Part shown: in pieces, positions 296-25,630 of the stretch
Layout of the letters: the number at the start of each line of letters is the position of its first letter
Numbering within the stretch: the stretch's first letter is position 1
DNA from: Anaerolineales bacterium
GTDB lineage: Bacteria; Chloroflexota; Anaerolineae; Anaerolineales; Villigracilaceae
Length of the DNA stretch: 42,196 bases
Reading direction: 5' to 3'
Assembly (NCBI GenBank): GCA_020060625.1
Contig: JAGUZU010000151.1
Span: 1 to 42,196, forward strand
Position numbers and translations under genes: made by a program
The notes under the pieces: model-generated
Database searches by the model: none
Seen by the model: only the letters and a program-made list of their open reading frames with translations
Told to the model about the DNA's origin: nothing

Positions 296-529
296 ACTGC
301 CCTCCGCAATCCGATTGTGTGAACGAAGAGGCGCGACTGGAATGCCTCCACACTTTGTGACGTGGAATCGGGCGGATGGATACCACCGGAGCCTTTCAGA
401 TTTGAAATGCGCCGCTCAAAGGACTTTTACAGAATCTTTGCAATTCCTTTCCGCTGCTTTCAAAATAATATTGATAATCACCCATAACATGTTTTGAAAG
501 AAAATTCACGGTATTTACAGGAAAACATG
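296..529. other. Divergent intergenic region between tadG-like gene and cytochrome b operon
   Basis: These 234 bases separate two divergent genes and must hold promoters for both. The stretch at about 455-490 is AT-rich and contains -10-like hexamers (TAATAT, GATAAT), but I could not pair one convincingly with a -35 box. No RNA gene or repeat is evident. Confidence 0.4.
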
Positions 530-1924
530 ATGACCGAACAAACTCCCGAACCTTCCATCTTTCAACGGATGCGAAAGAAACTTGTGCCCGAAGGAATCCC
601 CGAAGACGACCGCGGACGAATCCGCATGGTGGTGGATAGTCTTGTCCTCCACATTCACCCCTCCAAAGTGGAAGTCTCCACCCTCAAGTGGACATACACC
701 TGGGGCTTGGGCGGACTCTCCGCCTTGCTCATGACCATCCTCGGTCTCACGGGCATTATTCTGCTCAACAATTACACGCCCGCCGCGCCGCAAGCCTATT
801 TCGACATTCTCGAAATCAACTCCAACGTTTGGTTTGGCGAATTGATCCGCAACCTGCATCACTGGAGCGCGAACCTGCTTATCGTGGTGGCAGTGCTGCA
901 TTTAATACGCGTCTTTGTCACAGGCTCGTATCGTCCGCCGCGCGAACTCAACTGGCTGATCGGTGTTGCCATGCTTCTTCTGGTACTCGGCGCAAACTTT
1001 ACAGGCTATCTGCTTCCGTGGGATCAACTTGCATTTTGGGCGATCACTGTTGGTACAAGCATCATCAGTTATGTCCCAGTCGTCGGCAGTTGGCTCAGCC
1101 AACTCATCCTCGGCGGACCCGAAGTGGGCGCCAATACCTTGCTCAACTTCTATTCCATGCACATCTCATTTATTCCGCTCGCCATCTTCGGGTTGATGAT
1201 GTATCACTTCTGGCGTGTCCGCAAAGACGGCGGTCTGACGCGTCCCAAATCTGCGAATCAAATTGAAGTGGAAAAAGTCGAGCGTGTGACCACCATCCCG
1301 AATCTCGTCCACAAGGAATTGATCTTCGCCCTCGCATGGATTGCCGCGCTTCTTCTCTTCTCCATGCTTGTTCCGGCTCCATTGGAAGGAATCGCCAACC
1401 CAGCCTTATCTCCCAACCCCGCCAAAGCGCCGTGGTATTTCATGGGCTTGCAGGAACTTTTGCTGCACTTCCACCCGCTTGTTGGGGCAATTGTCATTCC
1501 AAGTATCGTGGTGATCGGCATCTTCCTCCTCCCGTTCTTTGACTTGAATCTCGCAAGCGTAGGCGTCTATTTCCGCTCCCACCGCGGACGCGCCCTTACC
1601 TTGCTCGCCGCCGGGTTGGCATTGATCGCCACTCCCATCTGGGTGCTGCTCGATGAATATCTGCTCAACTGGACGGAGTGGCTCCCAACCTGGAACACCC
1701 TACTCTCGAACGGACTCATCCCGCTCACGGTCATCCTCCTTCCGCTCATTCTGCTCGACGATTGGATGACGAAAAAATACAAAGCCGATATTGAAGAGCG
1801 CGTCCTGTTCATTGCCACGTTCATCTTCACCGCCTTCATCGTCCTCACCCTCATCGGCATCTTCTTCCGCGGACCCGGCATGAGCCTCTACCTCCCCTGG
1901 AATATGCCCGTTGTAGTTCATTAG
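530..1924 (+). CDS. Cytochrome b (fused b6/subunit IV type) of a quinol:cytochrome c oxidoreductase
   Basis: This is the membrane subunit that oxidises quinol and carries two b haems. Counted from the ATG at 530, the likely haem ligands are H110 and H124 in one helix and H211 and H226 in another. The 15-residue spacing of the second pair is b6-like rather than bc1-like. The quinol-site region reads NPAKAPWYFMGLQE, replacing the classical PEWY with APWY as in many bacterial menaquinol enzymes. About eight hydrophobic segments span one 464-residue chain, so the b6 and subunit IV halves are fused. AGGA at 519-522 favours 530 (or 527) over the TTG at 494. The Rieske and cytochrome c genes follow. 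Confidence 0.92.
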   Translation: MTEQTPEPSIFQRMRKKLVPEGIPEDDRGRIRMVVDSLVLHIHPSKVEVSTLKWTYTWGLGGLSALLMTILGLTGIILLNNYTPAAPQAYFDILEINSNVWFGELIRNLHHWSANLLIVVAVLHLIRVFVTGSYRPPRELNWLIGVAMLLLVLGANFTGYLLPWDQLAFWAITVGTSIISYVPVVGSWLSQLILGGPEVGANTLLNFYSMHISFIPLAIFGLMMYHFWRVRKDGGLTRPKSANQIEVEKVERVTTIPNLVHKELIFALAWIAALLLFSMLVPAPLEGIANPALSPNPAKAPWYFMGLQELLLHFHPLVGAIVIPSIVVIGIFLLPFFDLNLASVGVYFRSHRGRALTLLAAGLALIATPIWVLLDEYLLNWTEWLPTWNTLLSNGLIPLTVILLPLILLDDWMTKKYKADIEERVLFIATFIFTAFIVLTLIGIFFRGPGMSLYLPWNMPVVVH

Positions 1925-2573: not shown

Positions 2574-3860
2574 ATGAACCCCAAATCTCATCTCATCGAA
2601 TCCTTCATAGGCTTGGGCGCCCTCCTTATCGTCGTCTCTGCCCTTGGCTATTACATTCTCAATGAACCTGTCCGCATTGTGCAGGCGCAGGATGAAGTGC
2701 TCGCGCTTCAATTGGATGAAGCCATGACCCTCTACGCCGAAAACTGCGCCGTCTGCCACGGCATGAGCGGCGAAGGCATTGGCGCGACACCCCCACTGAA
2801 CAACCCTGCTCTGGTCACCATGCCTTTTGAAGAAATTTCAAAAACCATCGCTCGCGGACGCTACCAAACTGCCATGCCTGCCTGGGCAATCGAAGATGGC
2901 GGTCCGCTCAGCGATTATCAAATTGACGAGCTTGTCATGCTGATTCAATACGGCGATTGGGGCGCGACGGGGAATCGCGTCGTCAATCTGGGGCTTGCTC
3001 CGCTGATTCCTTTCACCACCGAAGTAGACCCAGCCTTGCTTGCAGAGATTGGCTCCTTGCTCGATGGCGCAACCCTGCAAACCGCCGTGACCCTTTTTGC
3101 CGCCAACTGCGTCTCCTGCCACGGCGCGGATGGACTTGGCACAGGCATTGCCCCCGCATTGAATGACCCTGCCGTTCGCGAGAAAACAGCGGATGAAATT
3201 CAACGCGTTATCACCTACGGAAATACGGGTACGCTCATGGCGGGCTGGAGCAATATCCTTGCCCCCGAAGAGATTACTGCGCTGGTGAGTCTTGTCCAAC
3301 GCTGGGACGAAGTTCCTCTTGGAACCATCCCCGCGCCGGATGTTCCCATCCCTGTCACTGAAGAGAGTCTTGCGTTGGGAAGTCAACTCTACGCGGCGAA
3401 TTGCTCACGCTGTCACGGACCTGAAGGACAGGGCACGCCGCGCGCGCCATCGCTTAACGTCAAATCCTTCCTCACCGACACCAGTGACCAAGCCATTCAG
3501 CAGATCATCACGCTCGGCGTGCCGGGTACTGCCATGCCCACCTGGGGCGACCGCATGACCGATGCCGACATACAAGCCATTGTAGGTTTCATCCGTCAAT
3601 GGGAGCCGACCGCGCCTGAGGTTGCCACCATCACCCGCCCAGGCGGAGGCGGTCCGCCGTGGAGGAACAACAATTCCACAACGCCAAACCTGCTGCCAAG
3701 CACAAACCCTCCGAGTACGATTTCCGGGAACAGCGCGGGCGGGCAAACCGCCTTGCAAACCCTTCTCGATTGGCGGCTGCTCATCCTGCCTGGCATTCTC
3801 CTGTCCATTGCTTTCACGCTGATTTATTCAGGCTGGGATTCCCTGCGGCGACTCCGCTAA
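2574..3860 (+). CDS. Membrane-anchored triheme cytochrome c
   Basis: The 428-residue protein has three c-type haem sites: CAVCH (C58-H62), CVSCH (from C179) and CSRCH (from C277), each starting a separate cytochrome c domain of about 90 residues. There is an N-terminal membrane segment at about 10-29 and a C-terminal one at about 398-420, so the haem domains are held on the outer face. A Gly/Pro/Asn/Thr-rich linker (about 345-385) precedes the last helix. By position it replaces cytochrome c1/f as electron acceptor of the cytochrome b/Rieske pair. Whether all three haems transfer electrons in series is inference. Confidence 0.9.
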   Translation: MNPKSHLIESFIGLGALLIVVSALGYYILNEPVRIVQAQDEVLALQLDEAMTLYAENCAVCHGMSGEGIGATPPLNNPALVTMPFEEISKTIARGRYQTAMPAWAIEDGGPLSDYQIDELVMLIQYGDWGATGNRVVNLGLAPLIPFTTEVDPALLAEIGSLLDGATLQTAVTLFAANCVSCHGADGLGTGIAPALNDPAVREKTADEIQRVITYGNTGTLMAGWSNILAPEEITALVSLVQRWDEVPLGTIPAPDVPIPVTEESLALGSQLYAANCSRCHGPEGQGTPRAPSLNVKSFLTDTSDQAIQQIITLGVPGTAMPTWGDRMTDADIQAIVGFIRQWEPTAPEVATITRPGGGGPPWRNNNSTTPNLLPSTNPPSTISGNSAGGQTALQTLLDWRLLILPGILLSIAFTLIYSGWDSLRRLR

Positions 3861-16596: not shown

Positions 16597-17502
16597 TTAT
16601 TGCAGGGCTTGTTCCGCAAGCGCGATTGCCCCCAGAATCCCCGAGCGATTTCCAAGACCCGGCGAGACGATATACGATTCGATGTTTTCGAGGATGACCG
16701 GCGAATGAATATAGCCGTTGATAAGTTCCCGCGTCTTTTTCCGGACCTTGGGCAGGAGATGCGGCACCGAGCCCACGCCTCCGCCGATGATAATTCGCTG
16801 CGGCGAAAGCACGAACGAATAACTGGCAAGCGCCTGGGCGATGTATTCCGCTTCGAGTTCCCAGGCAATGTGACCGGGCGGAAGCGTGTTGCTGCGCCGT
16901 CCCCAACGCTTTTCGATGGCAAGACCGGAGGCAAGCCCTTCAAAACAATCGCCGTGAAACGGACAGGCTCCCTCGAACGAGTCTTTGTCAATATCGTGTT
17001 TCACTGCGATATGTCCCATTTCGGGGTGGATCAAGCCGTGCAGAAGTTTTCCCTCCACGAACGCGCCGCCGCCGATGCCAGTGCCGATTGTAAGATAAAT
17101 GAAGTTTTGCAGCCCCTGCGCTTTACCCCAGCGCCACTCGCCCAGCGCCGCGCCGTTGACGTCGGTATCGAACGCGATGGGGACATCGAAGACCTCGCGC
17201 AGCATCCCGACGACGTTTGCGCCCGCCCAGCCAGGCTTGGGCGTCGGGAGGATGCAGCCATAGGTCGGCGAAGCAGGATTCGGGTCGAGCGGACCGAAGC
17301 ATGCAAATCCAATGGCGGAGAGTTTGCCGAGGCTGTCCTCCTGATGCTTGAAGAAATCCACCACTTGGGAGATGGTCTCCTCCGGCGCGGTGGTGTGAAT
17401 GCGGGCTTCCGCGCGGATGTTATCGGGTCCCGTGCCGATGGCGCAGACGAATTTCGTCCCGCCGCCTTCGATGCCGCCGTAAAGACGATGGTTGTTTTTC
17501 AT
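16597..17502 (-). CDS. ROK family sugar kinase (fructokinase/glucokinase-like)
   Basis: This ATP-dependent hexose kinase would phosphorylate the free sugar released by the neighbouring glycosidases. The N-terminus [20 protein letters not shown] has the ATP phosphate loop. [12 protein letters not shown] contains the catalytic Asp region, and [13 protein letters not shown] the sugar-binding loop. The zinc site HPEMGHI plus [14 protein letters not shown] is typical of ROK fructokinases. The start is the ATG at 17502, overlapping the treS stop by four bases (ATGA). Its 301 residues are a normal length. Specificity for glucose or fructose is not certain. Confidence 0.88.
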
Positions 17503-19100
17503 TTTTGCATTTGCAGCCAGTGATAGGAGTGTGGGTCGAGCGCGAGGACATCGGCGATGACATGCTCGTTGCCTGCAAAGAGGTCGAGATATTTCTTCTG
17601 GTATTGCGGCGGCAGTTTCACGGTCTGTGCGGACGCGCTCAGGTTGTTCAGGATCAGCATGGTATCGTCCCCGTGCCGGCGGATGTAGGCGGCGACATGT
17701 GGATTTCCACTTTCGACCCATTCCATGCCGCTGCTCCCAAACGCCTCGTGCTTCTTGCGGACGGCGATCATGCGTTTGATGGAATTGAACAGCGAATCGG
17801 GGTCATTCATCTGTCTGGCAACGTTGACATTGCGATAGCCCAACCTGCCTTTGACGAATTCGGAATACGGCTTGCCGCTGGTGAAGCCCGCGTTGGGCGA
17901 ATCGTCCCATTGCATCGGCGTGCGGACGCCGTTGCGGTCGGGCAGGTCGAGGTTGTCGCCCATGCCGATCTCGTCTCCGTAATAGATGATGGGCGAGCCG
18001 GGAAGTGTGAACAGCAGGGAATTGGCGAGTTCGATCTTGCGGCGGTCGTTATCGAGCAGCGGCGCGAGGCGGCGGCGGATACCGAGATTGATCTTCATGC
18101 GCGGTTCGGGCGCGTACTGTTCCCACATCCACTGGCGTTCTTCGGGCGTGACCATTTCCAGCGTCAGTTCATCGTGGTTGCGGAGGAAGGTACACCACTG
18201 GCAGTTCTCAGGGATGGGCGGCGTGCGCTGCATGATCCGCGCCATGTCTTCGTAGCGTTCCTTTTTGAGCGCCATGTAAATGCGCGGCATGATCGGAAAG
18301 TGGAAGCCCATGTGGAATTCGTCGCCGTCGCCGAAATACGGGCGCACGTCTTCGGGTCCCTGGTTCGCTTCACAAAGCAGGATGCGGTCGGGATAATGCT
18401 CGTCCATGAAGGCGCGCAGCTTTTTGAGGTAGGCATGGGTTTCGGGCAGGTTCTCGCAGTGGGTGTCTTCGCGCTCGAACAAGTAGGGGACGGCGTCGGC
18501 GCGGAATCCGTCGATCCCCAGGTTCAGCCAGAAGCGCGCCACATTGATCATTTCCTCCTGAACTTTTGGATTATCAAAATTCAAGTCGGGCTGGCTGGAA
18601 TAAAACCGATGCCAGTAATATTTGCCCGCCTTTTCATCCCACGTCCAGTTGGATGTTTCGGTATCCAAAAAGATGATGCGCGCATCCTTGTATTTTTGAT
18701 CCGTATCGCTCCAGACGTAGTAATCGCGGTGGGGCGAGTTTGGGTCGGAGCGGGAAGCCTGGAACCAGGGATGTTGATCGGAGGTGTGATTCAGCACGAG
18801 GTCCATGATGATGCGGACGTTTCGCCGATGCGCCTTTGCGATCAATTCCTTCAAGTCGTCCAGCGTGCCGTAGGATTTGTCCACGTTGTAATAATCCGCG
18901 ATGTCGTAGCCGTCATCATTCAAAGGCGAAGGGTAGATCGGCATGAGCCAGATGCAATCGATGCCAAGCGTTTGCAGATAATCCAATTTTTCGGCAAGCC
19001 CGTGCAGGTCGCCGCGTCCGTCGCCGTTGCTGTCTTTGAATGACCGCACGGAGATTTCGTAAAAGACCGCGTTTTTGTACCAGAGATTTTTATCCATCAT
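17499..19100 (-). CDS. treS: Trehalose synthase (maltose alpha-D-glucosyltransferase), GH13
   Basis: This enzyme interconverts maltose and trehalose. The GH13 catalytic set is visible: [15 protein letters not shown], the nucleophile in [17 protein letters not shown], the acid/base in [13 protein letters not shown] and the transition-state Asp in [13 protein letters not shown]. The blocks [12 protein letters not shown] and [18 protein letters not shown] are TreS-typical. The 533-residue protein has no fused maltokinase domain. The start is the ATG at 19100 overlapping the upstream stop (ATGA). It belongs to the sugar-uptake operon, where it would process imported alpha-glucosides. Confidence 0.9.
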
Positions 19101-20860
19101 GAGATTTTGTTCGACGTTTCCAAATGTTCCTGAATTGCCAATTCGATGAAGACCGCCGCGCTCCACCCGAAACCTGGCGCGGCGGACCCGGGCGCTTCTC
19201 CACTCTGCGAGTTGTAATACTCATGCATGCCCGCTCGACCGGCAATCATGTTCAGCGTTCCATCGCGCAGTTCCTTCGCAAGCCGATGCTCGCCGATGGT
19301 TTGCAGCGCTTCGATGAAAAAGTAATTGATGTTTGCCCAAACGGGCCCGCGCCACATTATTTCGGGGTTGTAGGCTGGGTCGTTATAAGCGACGGTCGGC
19401 AGGACGAACCTGCCCCAAAATTCGGAGGGGTTTTTCAAATGGGCGAGCAGGCGTTGATTGATTTCCCTGGGCAGTTGACCCGTCCATAAGGGATACAGGT
19501 TGAACGGCGTCAGCACGGGAATCGGTTTCTCGTTATGCAGGGCGCGGAAGATGCCCGCTTTTTCATCCCAAAGATGCTCGATGATATGGCTGGTCAATTC
19601 ATCCGCTTTTCTTTGCCATTGTTTTGCCTCGTCGTTTTTTTCGATGAATTCCGAGATTTGCGCCAGTGATTTCATTTGGATGACCAGATAGGTGTTGATG
19701 TCCGGCGATTCGACGGGCATGCCATAATCCCAAAGCGGGCAGTTATCCAGCCCCGATGAGTATGGATGTGTGTATTGCACGATACCGTCGCCGTCATCGT
19801 CGTTGTGGTTGAACCACCAGGCATTTTCACGCTTCAGCGGCTCGTAGATTTCCCGAAGGAAAGCCATGCTGGGCTCGCTCTCGTGAATTTTCAGCGCTGC
19901 CCATGCCATGATTGGGGGTTTCGTCACCCGCGCATGGATGGGATGACTGATTTCGGAGACAACGCCTTCATCAAAGATTGCGTCAGGGAGCATTCCGTCT
20001 GGCAGTTGATTTGCCAGCATCACGCGGATCTGATCCCGGGCGAGTTCGGGGTCAACGTGGCGGAAGGCGATGGCATGCAGGGCGCTGTCCCACAGCCACG
20101 CGCCCACGTAAAAGGCTTTGGTTGGCATCATGGCTTCGTATTTGACATAGCCCGACGGGCTGACCAGGTTATTCGCCATGACCCACCAGGCATAGGCATA
20201 TTTCTCGCGGCGTTTTTCGTCCACTTCCGGCGCGCGGCTGAACCATGCCTCCCAGCGGGTTTGCGCGTTTCCGCGAACGACTGAAAAAGGCATTGACGGA
20301 GGAGGGTTGTCATTGCCGATGTGGAGCGTGATCGAGCTATCTTCCTCCGCCTGCACGATGAATTCCATGATGAAGTTTTGTTCATCCGCCAGCGCTTGGT
20401 TGGATATCACCATGCCGTTGTTCACGCTGTATACCGCATCGCGGACATGCCTTATTTCGCCGCCAGTGTCGGTTTTGTGCCAGTGGTGCGGGCGCACTCG
20501 AAAGCGAATCCCCATGGCTTGGTGGTTGGGGAGTCCAAACGTCAGCGTGGATTCATTTTGAAAGACGAGGCAGACGTCCCCGGCGCGGGTTTGAAGCGTC
20601 AGCATGTCCGGCGAGGAGGATGTTTTGAAGTCCAGCGGATTCCCCTGTTTGTCAACGAATTGCAGGTCGTCAATGAAGGGGGGGCGGCGCAGGTAACTTT
20701 CGATGCCCGGTTCCACTTTGATAAGCCGCTCTGCCAGTTTGATGTACAGAGCGGACTTATCGAAATGTTTGTAAACCAGCAGGCGCGAACCCCGGTCGCT
20801 GAATGGTACGCGCGTTATATCGATTTGGTCGCGCAGGAGCGTCAGCAGCGATGTGTTCAA
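19097..20860 (-). CDS. GH63/GH37-like (alpha/alpha)6-barrel glycoside hydrolase
   Basis: The 587-residue cytoplasmic protein has an N-terminal beta-sandwich (about residues 1-200) and a C-terminal (alpha/alpha)6-type domain. Visible blocks include [20 protein letters not shown] (about 250), [26 protein letters not shown] and [16 protein letters not shown], with [20 protein letters not shown] near the end. These match MGH1/trehalase-like hydrolases, so trehalose, glucosylglycerate or another alpha-glucoside is a plausible substrate. It follows the permease genes directly and overlaps treS. Confidence 0.82.
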
Positions 20861-22045
20861 TTATCCTTTGACTGCGCCAGCCAGCATTCCGCGCACGAAG
20901 TAGCGTTGTAATCCGAAGAAGACGATCATGGGCAGCAGCATGGAAAGGAACGCCGAGGCGGTCAGTAACTGCCAGCCTGCGCCAAGCGATGTGACCATGT
21001 TGCTGATCTGATAGGTCATCACGGGTGTTGTGCCGCCGAGGAAGACCAGCGCCACCAGCAGGTCGTTCCAGACCCACAGGAATTGGAAGATGCCAAGCGA
21101 TGCGATGGCGGGCATTGCCAGCGGGATGACGAGCCTGTAAAACGCCGTCCAGTGGGATGCTCCGTCCAGGTAGGCGGACTCGAACAAGTCGCGCGGGAGC
21201 GAGCCGAGGAAGTTTCGCATCAGGTAGATGGCGTAGGGCATTCCAAACCCCGTGTGGAAGAGCCAGACGCCGAGGAAGGTTCCATTCAAGCCGAGTTGGG
21301 CGTACAGGCGGGAAATCGGGACGAGCGTCATTTGAAGCGGGACGACCTGCAAGCCGACCAGGATCGCGAAGAGCAGGAAGCGTCCCTTGAAATCAAGCCA
21401 TGCAAAGGCATAGCCTGCAAATGCGGCAAAAAGGATGGGGAGGAAGGTGGCGGGGATGGTCACGAGCAGGCTGTTGACGAAGGCGCGTCCCATGCCGCGC
21501 GGGTTGAGAATGTCGCTGGTGTTGCAATGGATGTCGAGCGGGGCTGTGCCGGCTTCGCAGTCTTTCAGGTACGTGCTTGTGCCGCGATAGCCCACGAGCG
21601 CGTCGATGTAATTGCTGAATGTGAAGCGCGGCGGGGCGTCCAGTTCGGAGATGCGGCGCAGGTAGGTGGCAATGTCCGCGGCGGCTTGGGATTCGGGGAT
21701 GGGGATGTCCTGCATGTGGGGCTGCCCGTTGATTTCCTCTCGCAGCGCTATGAGAAGCTGTAATGAACGCGGGTATTGGGCGATCAAAGCCGGGTCGGTC
21801 AAATCCGCTTCAGGGATGGCGGAGCCGTCGTCGCCGTGGCAGGAGGCGCAGTATTCGTTGTATTCCCCGGAGCCGCGCGGAGGCGAAAGCACCGTCCACC
21901 AGCCGGATGTGTTGATTTCCTGGGGCGGGCGCAGGGAGGTAATCAGCAGACCGAACGTCGGCACCACCCAGACGAGAATCATAAAAATGATGATGGCGTG
22001 GGTTGGAATGCGATTCAGAATCTTGTTGATGCGGTCGCGGTTCAT
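20861..22045 (-). CDS. Sugar ABC transporter permease (AglG/MalG type) with an inserted cytochrome c domain
   Basis: This is one of two inner-membrane subunits of an alpha-glucoside importer. Membrane segment 1 is residues 16-37. The binding-protein-dependent transport domain starts near residue 185 (GRAFVNSLLVTIPATF) and contains the EAA loop FESAYLDGASHWTAFYRLVIPLA. Between them, residues 58-138 form a c-type cytochrome domain with CASCH (C66-H70) and Met111 as a possible sixth ligand. AglG proteins have an extra loop domain at this place, preceded by GWWT as here, but a haem motif there is unexpected. The frame is continuous over 394 residues. It overlaps the upstream permease by four bases. 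Confidence 0.88.
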   Translation of the reverse strand: MNRDRINKILNRIPTHAIIIFMILVWVVPTFGLLITSLRPPQEINTSGWWTVLSPPRGSGEYNEYCASCHGDDGSAIPEADLTDPALIAQYPRSLQLLIALREEINGQPHMQDIPIPESQAAADIATYLRRISELDAPPRFTFSNYIDALVGYRGTSTYLKDCEAGTAPLDIHCNTSDILNPRGMGRAFVNSLLVTIPATFLPILFAAFAGYAFAWLDFKGRFLLFAILVGLQVVPLQMTLVPISRLYAQLGLNGTFLGVWLFHTGFGMPYAIYLMRNFLGSLPRDLFESAYLDGASHWTAFYRLVIPLAMPAIASLGIFQFLWVWNDLLVALVFLGGTTPVMTYQISNMVTSLGAGWQLLTASAFLSMLLPMIVFFGLQRYFVRGMLAGAVKG

Positions 22046-23004
22046 CGCATCTCCTCCTGCGCGAGGAAGCGCCTGATGTTGAAATAAATAAATGGGATGA
22101 TTGCAATGACCAGAACCACTGCCACCGCCGTGCCGCGCCCCACATTAAAGTTGATGTACATTTCGGTGTACATGCGGTTGGCGATCACGTCCGTGCCGAA
22201 GTTGCCGCCCGTCATCACGTAGACGATGTCGAATAACTTTAGCACATTGATGACCATGGTGGTGATGACCACCGTGATGGTGGGCATGATGATCGGAACC
22301 ATGATCTTCCAGAAGATCGTCCATTCTTTCGCGCCATCCACGCGCGCCGCTTCGATGACTTCATCCGGCACGGCTTTGAGGGCGGCGGAGAGTATGGTCA
22401 TGCAGAAGCCTGTCCATATCCACACGCCAACGACGATGAGCGCAACCGTGTTAAGCTGCGGGACGGTAAGAAAGGCGATTGGTTTGCCGCCGAACGATGT
22501 GATGATGGAATTCAGCAGCCCGATCTGCACCTGCTGGGTTCCGTAGTCATAGACGAATTTCCAAATGATGCCCGCGCCCACGAAGGAGACCGCCATCGGC
22601 ATGAAGATGATGGACTTCGCGAGCGCTTCATACTTGACCCGGTCTGCCAGCACGGCGAACATCAGTCCCAACCCGACAGTTCCACTCACCATCAGGACGA
22701 TCCATTTGAGCGTGTTTCCGTAGGAAGACCGCCAGAACGAGGACCAAAAGGCGGGAAGGGAGGAGGTGTCCATTTCCGCCGTCAGCGCGTAATGATAGTT
22801 TTCGAAGATTCCCCAACAGGGTTTTCCCTCCACGCAGGTGGTCGCGGCGGAGGCGGTGCCGTTCTTATTGCTGAAACTCAGCGCAATCGTATTGACCATC
22901 GGATAGACGATAAAAAAGGACATGACCAGCAAAGCCGGCAGGAGATAAAGCCACGGCGCCAGCCTGCCCTGTTTCATAATATTGGGTACGGAACGCTTTG
23001 CCAT
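22042..23004 (-). CDS. Sugar ABC transporter permease (AglF/MalF type)
   Basis: The 320-residue protein has six membrane segments and the EAA loop EVIEAARVDGAKEWTIFWKIMVPIIMP characteristic of binding-protein-dependent permeases. The loop after segment 1 carries two Cys (TTCVEGKPCW) that could form a disulfide. FSNKNGT and the following loop resemble the AglF branch of alpha-glucoside importers. AAAGGAGG precedes the ATG at 23004. The ATGA overlap with the next gene implies a 1:1 permease pair. No ATPase gene is in the operon; a shared MsmX-like ATPase elsewhere is likely. Confidence 0.9.
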   Translation of the reverse strand: MAKRSVPNIMKQGRLAPWLYLLPALLVMSFFIVYPMVNTIALSFSNKNGTASAATTCVEGKPCWGIFENYHYALTAEMDTSSLPAFWSSFWRSSYGNTLKWIVLMVSGTVGLGLMFAVLADRVKYEALAKSIIFMPMAVSFVGAGIIWKFVYDYGTQQVQIGLLNSIITSFGGKPIAFLTVPQLNTVALIVVGVWIWTGFCMTILSAALKAVPDEVIEAARVDGAKEWTIFWKIMVPIIMPTITVVITTMVINVLKLFDIVYVMTGGNFGTDVIANRMYTEMYINFNVGRGTAVAVVLVIAIIPFIYFNIRRFLAQEEMR

Positions 23005-23033
23005 TTGAACCTCCTTTGTAGGGGGAATCAATG

Positions 23034-23076: not shown

Positions 23077-24363
23077 TTACTTCAACGCTTCCGCTTGAAC
23101 GGCCGCAGCCTGGTCTAGCGCCGCTGTCAGGTCGCCGCCGTTGAGGTAATCCACAATGGCTGTCCATTCAGCGCTGCCGAAGCCGCTGGGGATCGAATCG
23201 CCGATGTCAGGCGTGAATCCCTGTGTGTTGTAGAAGGCTTCCGCTTTCTTGATCAGGGACGGGTCGGTGTAGTTGCCAGCCGCGCCCTTGTTCGGAGAAA
23301 GGTCGAAGCCAGCCTTCGCCCAGTTCGCGCCGCCTTCGGGCGAGGACAAATAGGTCACCAGCGCCTTGACTGCGGGTTTGTCGCTGAACGCCATCATCCA
23401 GTCCGAGCCGCCTTGGAGACCCTTCGCGCCGGGGACGACAAAGAAGTCATAATCGGTGCCGAAGACAAGGTCGGGGTACTGCTTTTGGACTTCGCCGCCC
23501 GCAAAGCCGGATTGCTTGACCATCATGGCTTCCGGGGGATCGCTGAACGGTTTGTAGATCGCGTCCAGGAATGCGGTTGAGAGCGTGCCTTGCGCGCCGC
23601 CGACCGTATACGCCGGATCTGTTGCCCACTTTCCGTAGGTTTCGTAGGCTTGGACGACGCCTGCGTCATTGTAGGGGACCGTGCCATTGATGATGTTCAT
23701 GACGTATTCAGGTCCCTGCTGAACGAGCAGAATGTCCTGCAAGAAGTCAGAGCCGGTCCAGCCGGTGGCGTCGCCGGATTCAAGACCCATGGACCAGGGC
23801 ACGTTTCCATCGGCGACCATCTTTTCGACGAGCGCATCCAGTTCGTCCCATGTGGTTGGGACGCTGTAACCGAAGGTCTCAAAGTTTGCAGGGCTGTACC
23901 AGATAATGGTCTTGATGTCGGATTTTACAGGAAGTCCGAGCCATTTGCCGTCCACGACGCCGGAATCGATCGCGCCGGGGATGTAGGCATCCTTGCTGGC
24001 GCCAAGCGCATCCATGGCGAACAATTTATCCTGATACTGTTGAAGCTGGGTGATGTTCCAGAAGGCGATATCAGGCGGCGTGCCAGCCTGGACGCGCGTA
24101 TCGAGGAGCGCCTGGTCGCGGGTCGATTCGGGTTTGAGGACAATGCCGCATTTTTCGACAAGCGGCTGGAGGATCTGGTTGAGGCGTTCCTCTTCCTGCC
24201 CGGACCATTGATAAAGCAGGCTGATCTCGTCGCCGGGGTTCGCTCCCATGCACATCGCGTCGGTTGAAGCGGCGGGCGCTTCCGTGGCAGTTCCGCCGCA
24301 CGCCGTCAGGAGCATGGCGGTAACTACAAACATGGCAAAAATTTGCCAGAATACTTTTTTCAT
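23077..24363 (-). CDS. Sugar ABC transporter substrate-binding lipoprotein (AglE-like)
   Basis: This extracellular receptor for the importer is 428 residues long. A signal peptide ends in the lipobox LLTACGG (C about residue 22). The mature protein has the two-lobed family-1 solute-binding pattern (WSGQEEERLNQILQPLVEK, QAGTPPDIAFWN, PTTWDELDALV, GGSDWMMAFSDKP). Two cysteines, near MCMGANP and EKCGI, could pair. AAGGAG lies before the ATG at 24363. It is the first gene of the operon driven by the promoter at 24516-24543. Alpha-glucosides such as trehalose or maltose are the likely ligands by context. Confidence 0.92.
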   Translation of the reverse strand: MKKVFWQIFAMFVVTAMLLTACGGTATEAPAASTDAMCMGANPGDEISLLYQWSGQEEERLNQILQPLVEKCGIVLKPESTRDQALLDTRVQAGTPPDIAFWNITQLQQYQDKLFAMDALGASKDAYIPGAIDSGVVDGKWLGLPVKSDIKTIIWYSPANFETFGYSVPTTWDELDALVEKMVADGNVPWSMGLESGDATGWTGSDFLQDILLVQQGPEYVMNIINGTVPYNDAGVVQAYETYGKWATDPAYTVGGAQGTLSTAFLDAIYKPFSDPPEAMMVKQSGFAGGEVQKQYPDLVFGTDYDFFVVPGAKGLQGGSDWMMAFSDKPAVKALVTYLSSPEGGANWAKAGFDLSPNKGAAGNYTDPSLIKKAEAFYNTQGFTPDIGDSIPSGFGSAEWTAIVDYLNGGDLTAALDQAAAVQAEALK

Positions 24364-24496
24364 TCTTCTCTCCTTATTTAAGAAAAGGTTGCAGGTTTTC
24401 TGGGGACGAAAACGGGGGATTGGGTTATTTGATCGCACACCTCCTCTATGTTAATGGATTTTGCGGGTGGAAACATCGAATGAAAGTCACTTTTCA

Positions 24497-24619: not shown

Positions 24620-25630
24620 CTAGGTGGTCACGCGCTCGACAAGTTTCAACGGCAGGTTGATATGCTGCAACGGACGTTCCGATTCCCCGATTCGCGAAAG
24701 CAATATCTCAGCCGCCAGCCTGCCGGATTCATCCAAATGCTGGCGGACTGTCGTTAAATCCACATGCTCGGCAACATCGATGTCGTCAAACCCCACAATG
24801 GCGAGATCATCCGGCACTTTCACGCCCAGTTGGCGCGCCACCTTCATGATGCTCAACGCCTGCGTATCCGAAGCCGCAAAGATGGCAGTGGGCGGTTTCG
24901 GCAGGCTCATCAATTCGTGCGCCGCCTGACGCGTTTCCGCAGGCGTGTAAGGGACCGAACGGATATATGTCTTCGATAATGAGAAGCCAGCCTCCTGCAA
25001 AGACTGCTTGAACCCCGTAAGACGCGATTTCACCGGATGGATCGCAAACCGTTCCGGCGGTTCAATGTCCCCGAGAAATGCGAAGGTTTTATGTCCCTTT
25101 TTGATGAGATGTTCCGCGACCAATTGCCCGCCATGCGTGTCATTGATCAGAATGCTGTTCAACTGCGGGTGTGAATATTCGATCATAACGGTTTCCATCC
25201 CGTTCGTAATCAAGCGCTGCGCATCCTGGTCGCCAAGCGCCAGCGACATGATGATCAACCCGTCGATGTTTCTCATCAAAGGAATGGAGGAAAGATACCC
25301 CTGCAAGTGATCCATTGAATCGACCGGATAGATCACCAGTTCGTAATTGGCTTTCGAGAGCGCCGAAGCCACTCCTCGAAGCCGCTGCACAAAGGACGGC
25401 GCGGTAAAAAAAGGCGTCAACACCCCGATGCGGTCTGTGTTTTGCAAAGCGCGCGCGCGCGCGTCCGCCCTGGGTACATACCCCAATTTATCTATGGCAT
25501 CCATCACCCGTTTGTGGGTTTCAGGATTTACCTTGTCCGGCATGTTCAGTACGCGCGAGATGGTCGAAATGCTCACGCCGGAAAGCCTGGCAACATCGTA
25601 GATCGTTGGAGATTTTTTGGAAGACACCAT
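24620..25630 (-). CDS. LacI family transcriptional regulator of the sugar operon
   Basis: The 336-residue repressor has an N-terminal helix-turn-helix (PTIYDVARLSGVSISTISRVLN, about residues 8-29), a hinge near residues 50-62, and a periplasmic-binding-like effector domain (DRIGVLTPFF, LLINDTHGGQ-like ILINDTHGGQLVAEHL, AIFAASDTQALSIMKVA, DLAIVGFDDIDVAEH). It lies directly upstream of, and in the same direction as, the uptake operon. Identical palindromes at both promoters indicate autoregulation and control of the operon. The ATG at 25630 has no ribosome site and lies about 20 bases from the -10 box, so its leader is very short. A (GC)7 run in the hinge codons is unusual. Confidence 0.92.
   Translation of the reverse strand: MVSSKKSPTIYDVARLSGVSISTISRVLNMPDKVNPETHKRVMDAIDKLGYVPRADARARALQNTDRIGVLTPFFTAPSFVQRLRGVASALSKANYELVIYPVDSMDHLQGYLSSIPLMRNIDGLIIMSLALGDQDAQRLITNGMETVMIEYSHPQLNSILINDTHGGQLVAEHLIKKGHKTFAFLGDIEPPERFAIHPVKSRLTGFKQSLQEAGFSLSKTYIRSVPYTPAETRQAAHELMSLPKPPTAIFAASDTQALSIMKVARQLGVKVPDDLAIVGFDDIDVAEHVDLTTVRQHLDESGRLAAEILLSRIGESERPLQHINLPLKLVERVTT

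Follow-up and report, generated by a model that had tools for sequence, protein, structure and literature searches.

The window analysed here, a stretch of 42,196 nucleotides from an Anaerolineales bacterium of the phylum Chloroflexota (GenBank assembly GCA_020060625.1, contig JAGUZU010000151.1), carries on its minus strand a gene for a 394-residue ABC permease of the MalG/SugB type (20861..22045). A predicted cytochrome c-type domain, recognized by family matches and a structural model, is inserted in this permease (residues 54-138; 21632..21886) between transmembrane (TM) helix 1 (about residues 15-37; 21935..22003), modeled as a helix over residues 15-37, and the transport core (BPD_transp_1; residues 185-394; 20864..21493), delimited by Pfam, sequence and fold matches. 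The initial annotation had read a cytochrome domain into 21632-21874 (residues 58-138, which lie inside the domain as delimited here), in a continuous frame between TM helix 1 and a normal transport core, and this layout is borne out by the open reading frame, Pfam and conservation across the family. Its reading of the motif CASCH at C66-H70 (codons at 21836-21850), followed by GDDGS, also stands; the conservation of this motif marks it as a probable haem c attachment site with His70 as the proximal ligand.

The gene belongs to a run of minus-strand genes typical of a sugar importer. On one side it overlaps by 4 bases with the gene for a MalF-type partner permease (22042..23031), which bears a cysteine pair in the sequence TTCVEGKPC, followed by genes for a putative sugar-binding protein with a lipobox-like start (23077..24438), recognized by its conserved position and by weak matches to sugar-binding proteins far under the cut-off, and for a LacI-family regulator identified by domain matches (24620..25630). 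On the other side lie genes for: 1) an MGH1-like/GH63-type glycoside hydrolase (19097..20860; PF22422, 265 bits), which falls under the NCBIfam cut-offs for alpha-glucosidase and glucosylglycerate hydrolase; 2) a TreS-like GH13 enzyme (17499..19166; TIGR02456, 818 bits against a cut-off of 678); and 3) a ROK-family sugar kinase scoring below the curated cut-offs (16597..17721). We then counted these neighbors across the loci with enough flanking sequence, drawn from 40 domain-bearing and 15 domain-less loci. The MalF-type permease and the binding protein accompany the domain-bearing permease without exception (39/39 and 35/35), the LacI-family gene and the TreS-like GH13 gene in most cases (28/32 and 28/31), and the GH63-type gene in 12 of 31; the corresponding figures for the domain-less loci are 15/15, 14/14, 10/11, 6/8 and 1/8. 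The LacI matches across loci often show only about 30% identity and may therefore represent other members of the LacI family. A separate cytochrome gene adjoining the operon was considered and discarded, as the nine CxxCH-containing frames recovered (102-236 residues) occur in just 9 of 51 loci, with some genomes represented twice and some flanks short. The GH13 and GH63 neighbors suggest that the system transports sugars, and its substrate is likely to be trehalose, maltose or another alpha-glucoside.

In a Pfam search with the single protein, BPD_transp_1 matches residues 207-387 with 55.3 bits (cut-off 26.4), and the best solved sequence relatives are the trehalose transporter SugB chains 8ja7 and 7cad, with alignments beginning at or beyond residue 175. 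The model of the full permease has a mean pLDDT of 81.3, and its best fold matches are SugB and MalG, at no more than 28% identity for these chains. The transport core and the MalF-type partner are features shared with SugB of the trehalose importer LpqY-SugABC and with MalG of MalFGK2; unlike the window permease, the SugB/MalG relatives that we aligned have no cytochrome domain. The first 16 residues include four lysines or arginines against one aspartate or glutamate, which indicates that the loop after TM helix 1 should face the outside. The topology of MalG would place this loop, by homology, on the same side. The inserted domain would hence sit on the extracytoplasmic side of the membrane, where c-type haem could be attached.

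Taken singly, the permease gives only sub-threshold matches to cytochrome families in Pfam, with 20.5 bits for Cytochrome_CBB3 (cut-off 27) and 14.9 bits for Cytochrom_C (cut-off 21.3). This is the one point in favor of dismissing the domain as a chance CxxCH motif, a frameshift or an assembly chimera. When the domain alone is searched from each family member, Cytochrome_CBB3 is recovered in 35 of 36 and Cytochrom_C in 28 of 36 (Pfam, E<=0.01), and a family profile of the domain run against the PDB matches CcoP and other c-type cytochromes, with a best value of 1e-7. The isolated domain is modeled with a pLDDT of 90.4. A Foldseek search with this model places c-type cytochromes at the top, with a weak best E-value of 0.021 and none reaching 0.001. 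A second structural aligner lists 50 entries with Z-scores of 5.9-7.2, values below 8 being middling by the tool's own note, and all of these are by title c-type cytochromes or enzymes containing such a domain (e.g. 2zoo and 8gy2, which we take to be enzymes with a cytochrome c domain). The fold anticipated from the motif by the initial annotation is thus the one predicted by the domain model and recovered by both structural searches. Once the relatives are included, the case from sequence and modeling that the insert is a cytochrome c-type domain becomes strong.

We found that the domain is spread well beyond the window. A permease match at 1e-30 was obtained in 41 of the 61 genomes of relatives, 11 of these being full-length with CxxCH (the window's own genome included), and for the orthologue set 80 of 382 loci from named genomes were retained. 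Searches with the domain profile matched 28 of 396 Anaerolineae genomes at E<=1e-6, of which 26 are strong (5e-25 or better) and two are weak and without a permease match. Among 301 genomes across the phylum nine were matched: seven strongly, all from the window's own family, and two weakly with no permease match. Combining the relatives' set with the class-level profile search, the domain-bearing permeases extend across 16 family codes. Counting identical sequences once and leaving out paralogues (L002-L004, L006 and L007), there are 60 distinct domain-bearing permeases, and one-contig genomes (at least three, G021, G026 and G448) are among those that encode them. Because 60 distinct permeases and one-contig genomes conserve the domain across these 16 family codes, we consider a chance motif, frameshift or chimera to be refuted, its probability being negligible; the possibility of an assembly chimera, which the initial annotation had itself raised, is likewise excluded. 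In one permease (L089:5986-7566) the loop after TM helix 1 houses two cytochrome c units in tandem, each having a distal motif of the HIPE/HVPE type.

Examination of the conservation pattern of the domain revealed CxxCHG in all 61 units of the 60 distinct permeases, a set itself picked by the CxxCH pattern; in the search made without motif selection, all 26 strong profile matches are permeases carrying CxxCH. The invariant positions in an alignment of 36 rows (A2) are the two cysteines, histidine and glycine of CxxCHG, one leucine, His110 (21716..21718) and one proline. Over the larger set, residue 110 is a histidine in 60 of 61 units, the exception being L062. The initial annotation had proposed the adjacent Met111 (21713..21715) as a possible haem ligand. 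While the methionine is present in the window permease, residue 111 varies across the 61 units (33 M, 13 L, 9 V, 5 I and 1 T), in a pattern resembling a hydrophobic packing site. These counts speak against it as a conserved distal ligand, and the conserved distal methionine of class I cytochromes c is accordingly not a feature of the inserted domain. An alignment of the domain with other cytochromes left the placement of the distal ligand ambiguous; the residue counts make His110 a more likely distal ligand than Met111. We infer that haem c is covalently attached at C66 and C69, with probable His/His ligation through His70 and His110. His/Met ligation is usual in domains of the type found in cytochrome c6, OmcF and CcoP of cbb3 oxidase. 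These domains share with the insert the CxxCH motif, the predicted fold and a length of about 85 residues; they differ from it in that position 111 of the insert varies with His110 kept, and in that they serve as soluble carriers or belong to respiratory complexes, whereas the insert lies inside an ABC permease. A possible relative is found in a 656-residue frame on the minus strand at locus L148, which has two CxxCH units, the second with a histidine (GNHAAL) at the position of the usual distal methionine.

The homologues of the permease include orthologues that lack CxxCH, a finding that the initial annotation had named as a possible refutation if such proteins aligned through the loop. These orthologues are instead missing the entire domain. 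The stretch between the GWW and NY motifs spans 92-116 residues in 51 domain-bearing loci (190 in the two-unit L089, counted among them) and 16-34 residues in 15 domain-less ones, with none in between. The cores of the domain-less orthologues are up to 87% identical to that of the window permease (L080), and they mostly reside in the same operon. In a tree of 67 cores, a 58-row clade (support 100/99) unites 44 domain-bearing and 14 domain-less rows; L091, cut at a contig end, was left out of the trees, and L090, whose open frame starts inside the core, was excluded from the domain-less sets, though it figures as domain-less in one earlier tree. Domain presence requires three changes in all on this tree, fitting one gain and two losses. 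In an AU test the domain-less rows were not rejected as a single clade (p 0.163), and consequently a single loss is not rejected either. Close orthologues do not need the domain: as judged from these comparisons, it is an add-on to an alpha-glucoside/trehalose-type importer.

Between the inserted domain and the core lies a clade-specific loop (residues 150-182; 21500..21598) with two cysteines, Cys163 and Cys174, both invariant in the 35 rows of alignment A1. This pair is present in 60/60 domain-bearing and 14/15 domain-less permeases, the apparent exception (L091) being a cut end in which both cysteines are seen, and it is absent from the 16 outgroup rows, where L021 shows a single cysteine. 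The pair in the MalF-type partner follows the same distribution (38/42 domain-bearing, 14/15 domain-less and 0/9 outgroup). Both pairs probably form disulfides. Thus, outer loops of both permease subunits bear clade-specific cysteine pairs that persist in the orthologues without haem.

A further group of permeases from the same genus and order (L022-L026, L028-L031 and L034) combines a related core with a different insert of 77-79 residues after the GWWT motif, devoid of CxxCH. They may resemble the AglG proteins to which the initial annotation ascribed an extra loop domain at this position. We considered this insert as a haem-less ancestor of the cytochrome domain and set the idea aside, as a profile comparison found no relation between the two (probability 0.2% with gappy columns removed), though with ten sequences and an Neff of 2.3 this comparison has low power. 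The presence of another insert at the same loop site suggests that the site accepts different add-on domains. This would also suit a purely structural role, in which the haem stabilizes a module that docks or spaces the binding protein or the envelope and has no redox function. Another point that such a role would accommodate is the quicker evolution of the domain relative to the core, with dN/dS of 0.10-0.32 against 0.006-0.063 (rough estimates from pairs with computable dS, which is mostly >1). Against it, CxxCHG and His110 are conserved in a domain whose other positions mostly vary, and the domain-less orthologues manage with linkers of 16-34 residues and no replacement domain. We regard a structural role as rather unlikely.

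To place the domain in the context of haem delivery and respiration, we surveyed the genomes that encode these permeases. The window's own genome has two matches to Cytochrom_C_asm over the cut-off, in frames of 720 and 246 residues, lengths that presumably correspond to CcmF and CcmC. It also encodes COX1-type oxidases and gives 17 Cytochrome_CBB3 matches at E<=0.01, the inserted domain included. On the window's contig, a gene for a c-type cytochrome with three CxxCH units (2574-3860, plus strand) adjoins one (494-1924, plus strand) that we take, from its sequence, to code for a cytochrome b-like protein; both are respiratory genes. Cytochrom_C_asm is found in 36/36 domain-bearing genomes versus 8/15 domain-less ones, and COX1 over its cut-off in 27/36 versus 2/15. 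For the 50 rows placed in the tree, Fisher tests give p-values of 3e-5 and 2e-4 respectively. Only two of the pairs are independent, however, and within these COX1 is often the same; with just two such pairs, the link to genome content cannot reach phylogenetically sound significance. Moreover, 176 of 199 genomes in the class have Cytochrom_C_asm, so that 36/36 alone says little and the informative part is its absence from 7 of the 15 domain-less genomes. As proof, the co-occurrence is weakened by both this base rate and the scarcity of independent pairs. Among the genomes with a strong profile match that were also surveyed for the base rate, 17 of 18 have Cytochrom_C_asm; the exception, G163, is a domain-bearing genome, 73% complete, with no match. 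Two genomes with domain-less orthologues, G096 and G098 (L072 and L075), have a COX1 match and no Cytochrom_C_asm match.

These genome contents bear on the possibility that the permease anchors an electron-transfer module, with the cytochrome relaying electrons between periplasmic partners such as a sugar-oxidizing enzyme or a bc-type complex and an oxidase. The predicted c-type cytochrome fold, the oxidases and cytochromes of the window's own genome and the low frequency of COX1 among the domain-less genomes are all compatible with such a relay, as is the placement of X183 cytochrome domains in carbohydrate-linked extracellular proteins, described in the available passages of PMC10916295. On the other hand, no redox gene was found as part of the recurring operon in either the domain-bearing or the domain-less loci, and 9 of the 36 domain-bearing genomes have no COX1 match over the cut-off, which implies that an oxidase of the COX1 family is not required. 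On balance an electron relay seems unlikely.

Cytochrome c folds with a six-coordinate haem usually have little affinity for gases, which counts against the domain acting as a sensor in which NO, CO or O2 would take the place of the distal ligand and thereby alter the transporter. In favor of this notion, extracytoplasmic haem-c domains with NO-sensor properties are known, according to the available part of PMC12889525; we nevertheless hold it to be quite improbable. The same source describes haem-binding sCache domains (DUF3365/Tll0287) with extracytoplasmic covalent haem c, for which a sensor or redox role has been proposed. The likeness to the permease is that a protein of another fold has gained covalent haem c on the outer side; the difference is that sCache joins a Cache fold to a short cytochrome-derived fragment (PMC12889525, as available), whereas the permease appears to contain a whole domain. 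The X183 domains of Teredinibacter turnerae (TtX183) are, as here, c-type cytochrome domains of carbohydrate-linked proteins; unlike the window permease, they belong to large extracellular multidomain proteins thought to be carbohydrate-active, have His/Met haem and are not part of transporters (PMC10916295, as available). The word 'permease' is absent from the main text of both papers, and the passages available from PMC13106123, PMC5898192 and PMC8756737 contain no permease with a cytochrome domain. More generally, the literature searched has no description of a haem-carrying permease of an ABC importer, in line with the impression recorded in the initial annotation. The permease family and the kind of domain are both known, and it is their combination that appears to be new.

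We arrive at a reading to which we give about even weight: the locus encodes the MalG-side permease of an alpha-glucoside/trehalose-type importer with an inserted haem-c domain, most likely serving as an extracytoplasmic redox (or gas) input. A redox input fits best because close orthologues manage without the domain, because of its dN/dS values, and because the genomes without it are mostly those without COX1; other proteins also have extracytoplasmic haem-c sensor domains (PMC12889525). Counting against this reading are the lack of a redox gene in the recurring operon, the 9 of 36 domain-bearing genomes with no COX1 match over the cut-off and the faster evolution of the domain. The permease would have acquired this single-haem domain in its first extracytoplasmic loop at an early point in the history of the Anaerolineae clade in which the domain is now found. 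Haem c is most likely joined to C66 and C69 by the cytochrome c assembly system of the cell, its axial ligands being His70 and, probably, His110. The haem might then read the redox state outside by receiving electrons from carriers in the periplasm or the membrane, and a change in its own redox state could alter the transport cycle via TM helix 1 or the face on which the binding protein docks, thereby tying sugar import to respiration. Beyond what was computed, namely the domain, its motif, predicted fold, conservation, operon, and gain and loss, we hypothesize that the predicted haem domain confers redox gating on transport. The specific form of this proposal, in which the extracytoplasmic redox state gates sugar uptake through a bis-His cytochrome c domain of the permease and respiration would thus set carbon import directly, without gene regulation, is tentative and somewhat more apt to prove wrong than right.

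Control of ABC importers is known to operate via gene regulation, binding of EIIA or trans-inhibition. If the proposal is true, haem c in a permease would constitute a direct physical link from redox state or respiration to nutrient uptake. Because domain-bearing and domain-less orthologues both occur naturally, the redox question lends itself to a direct test. The permease would also add to the examples of membrane proteins into which an entire, unrelated cytochrome module has been inserted. In the uncultured Anaerolineae that carry it, a haem domain in an outer loop may allow respiratory or redox conditions on the outer side of the membrane to act on the uptake of sugars.
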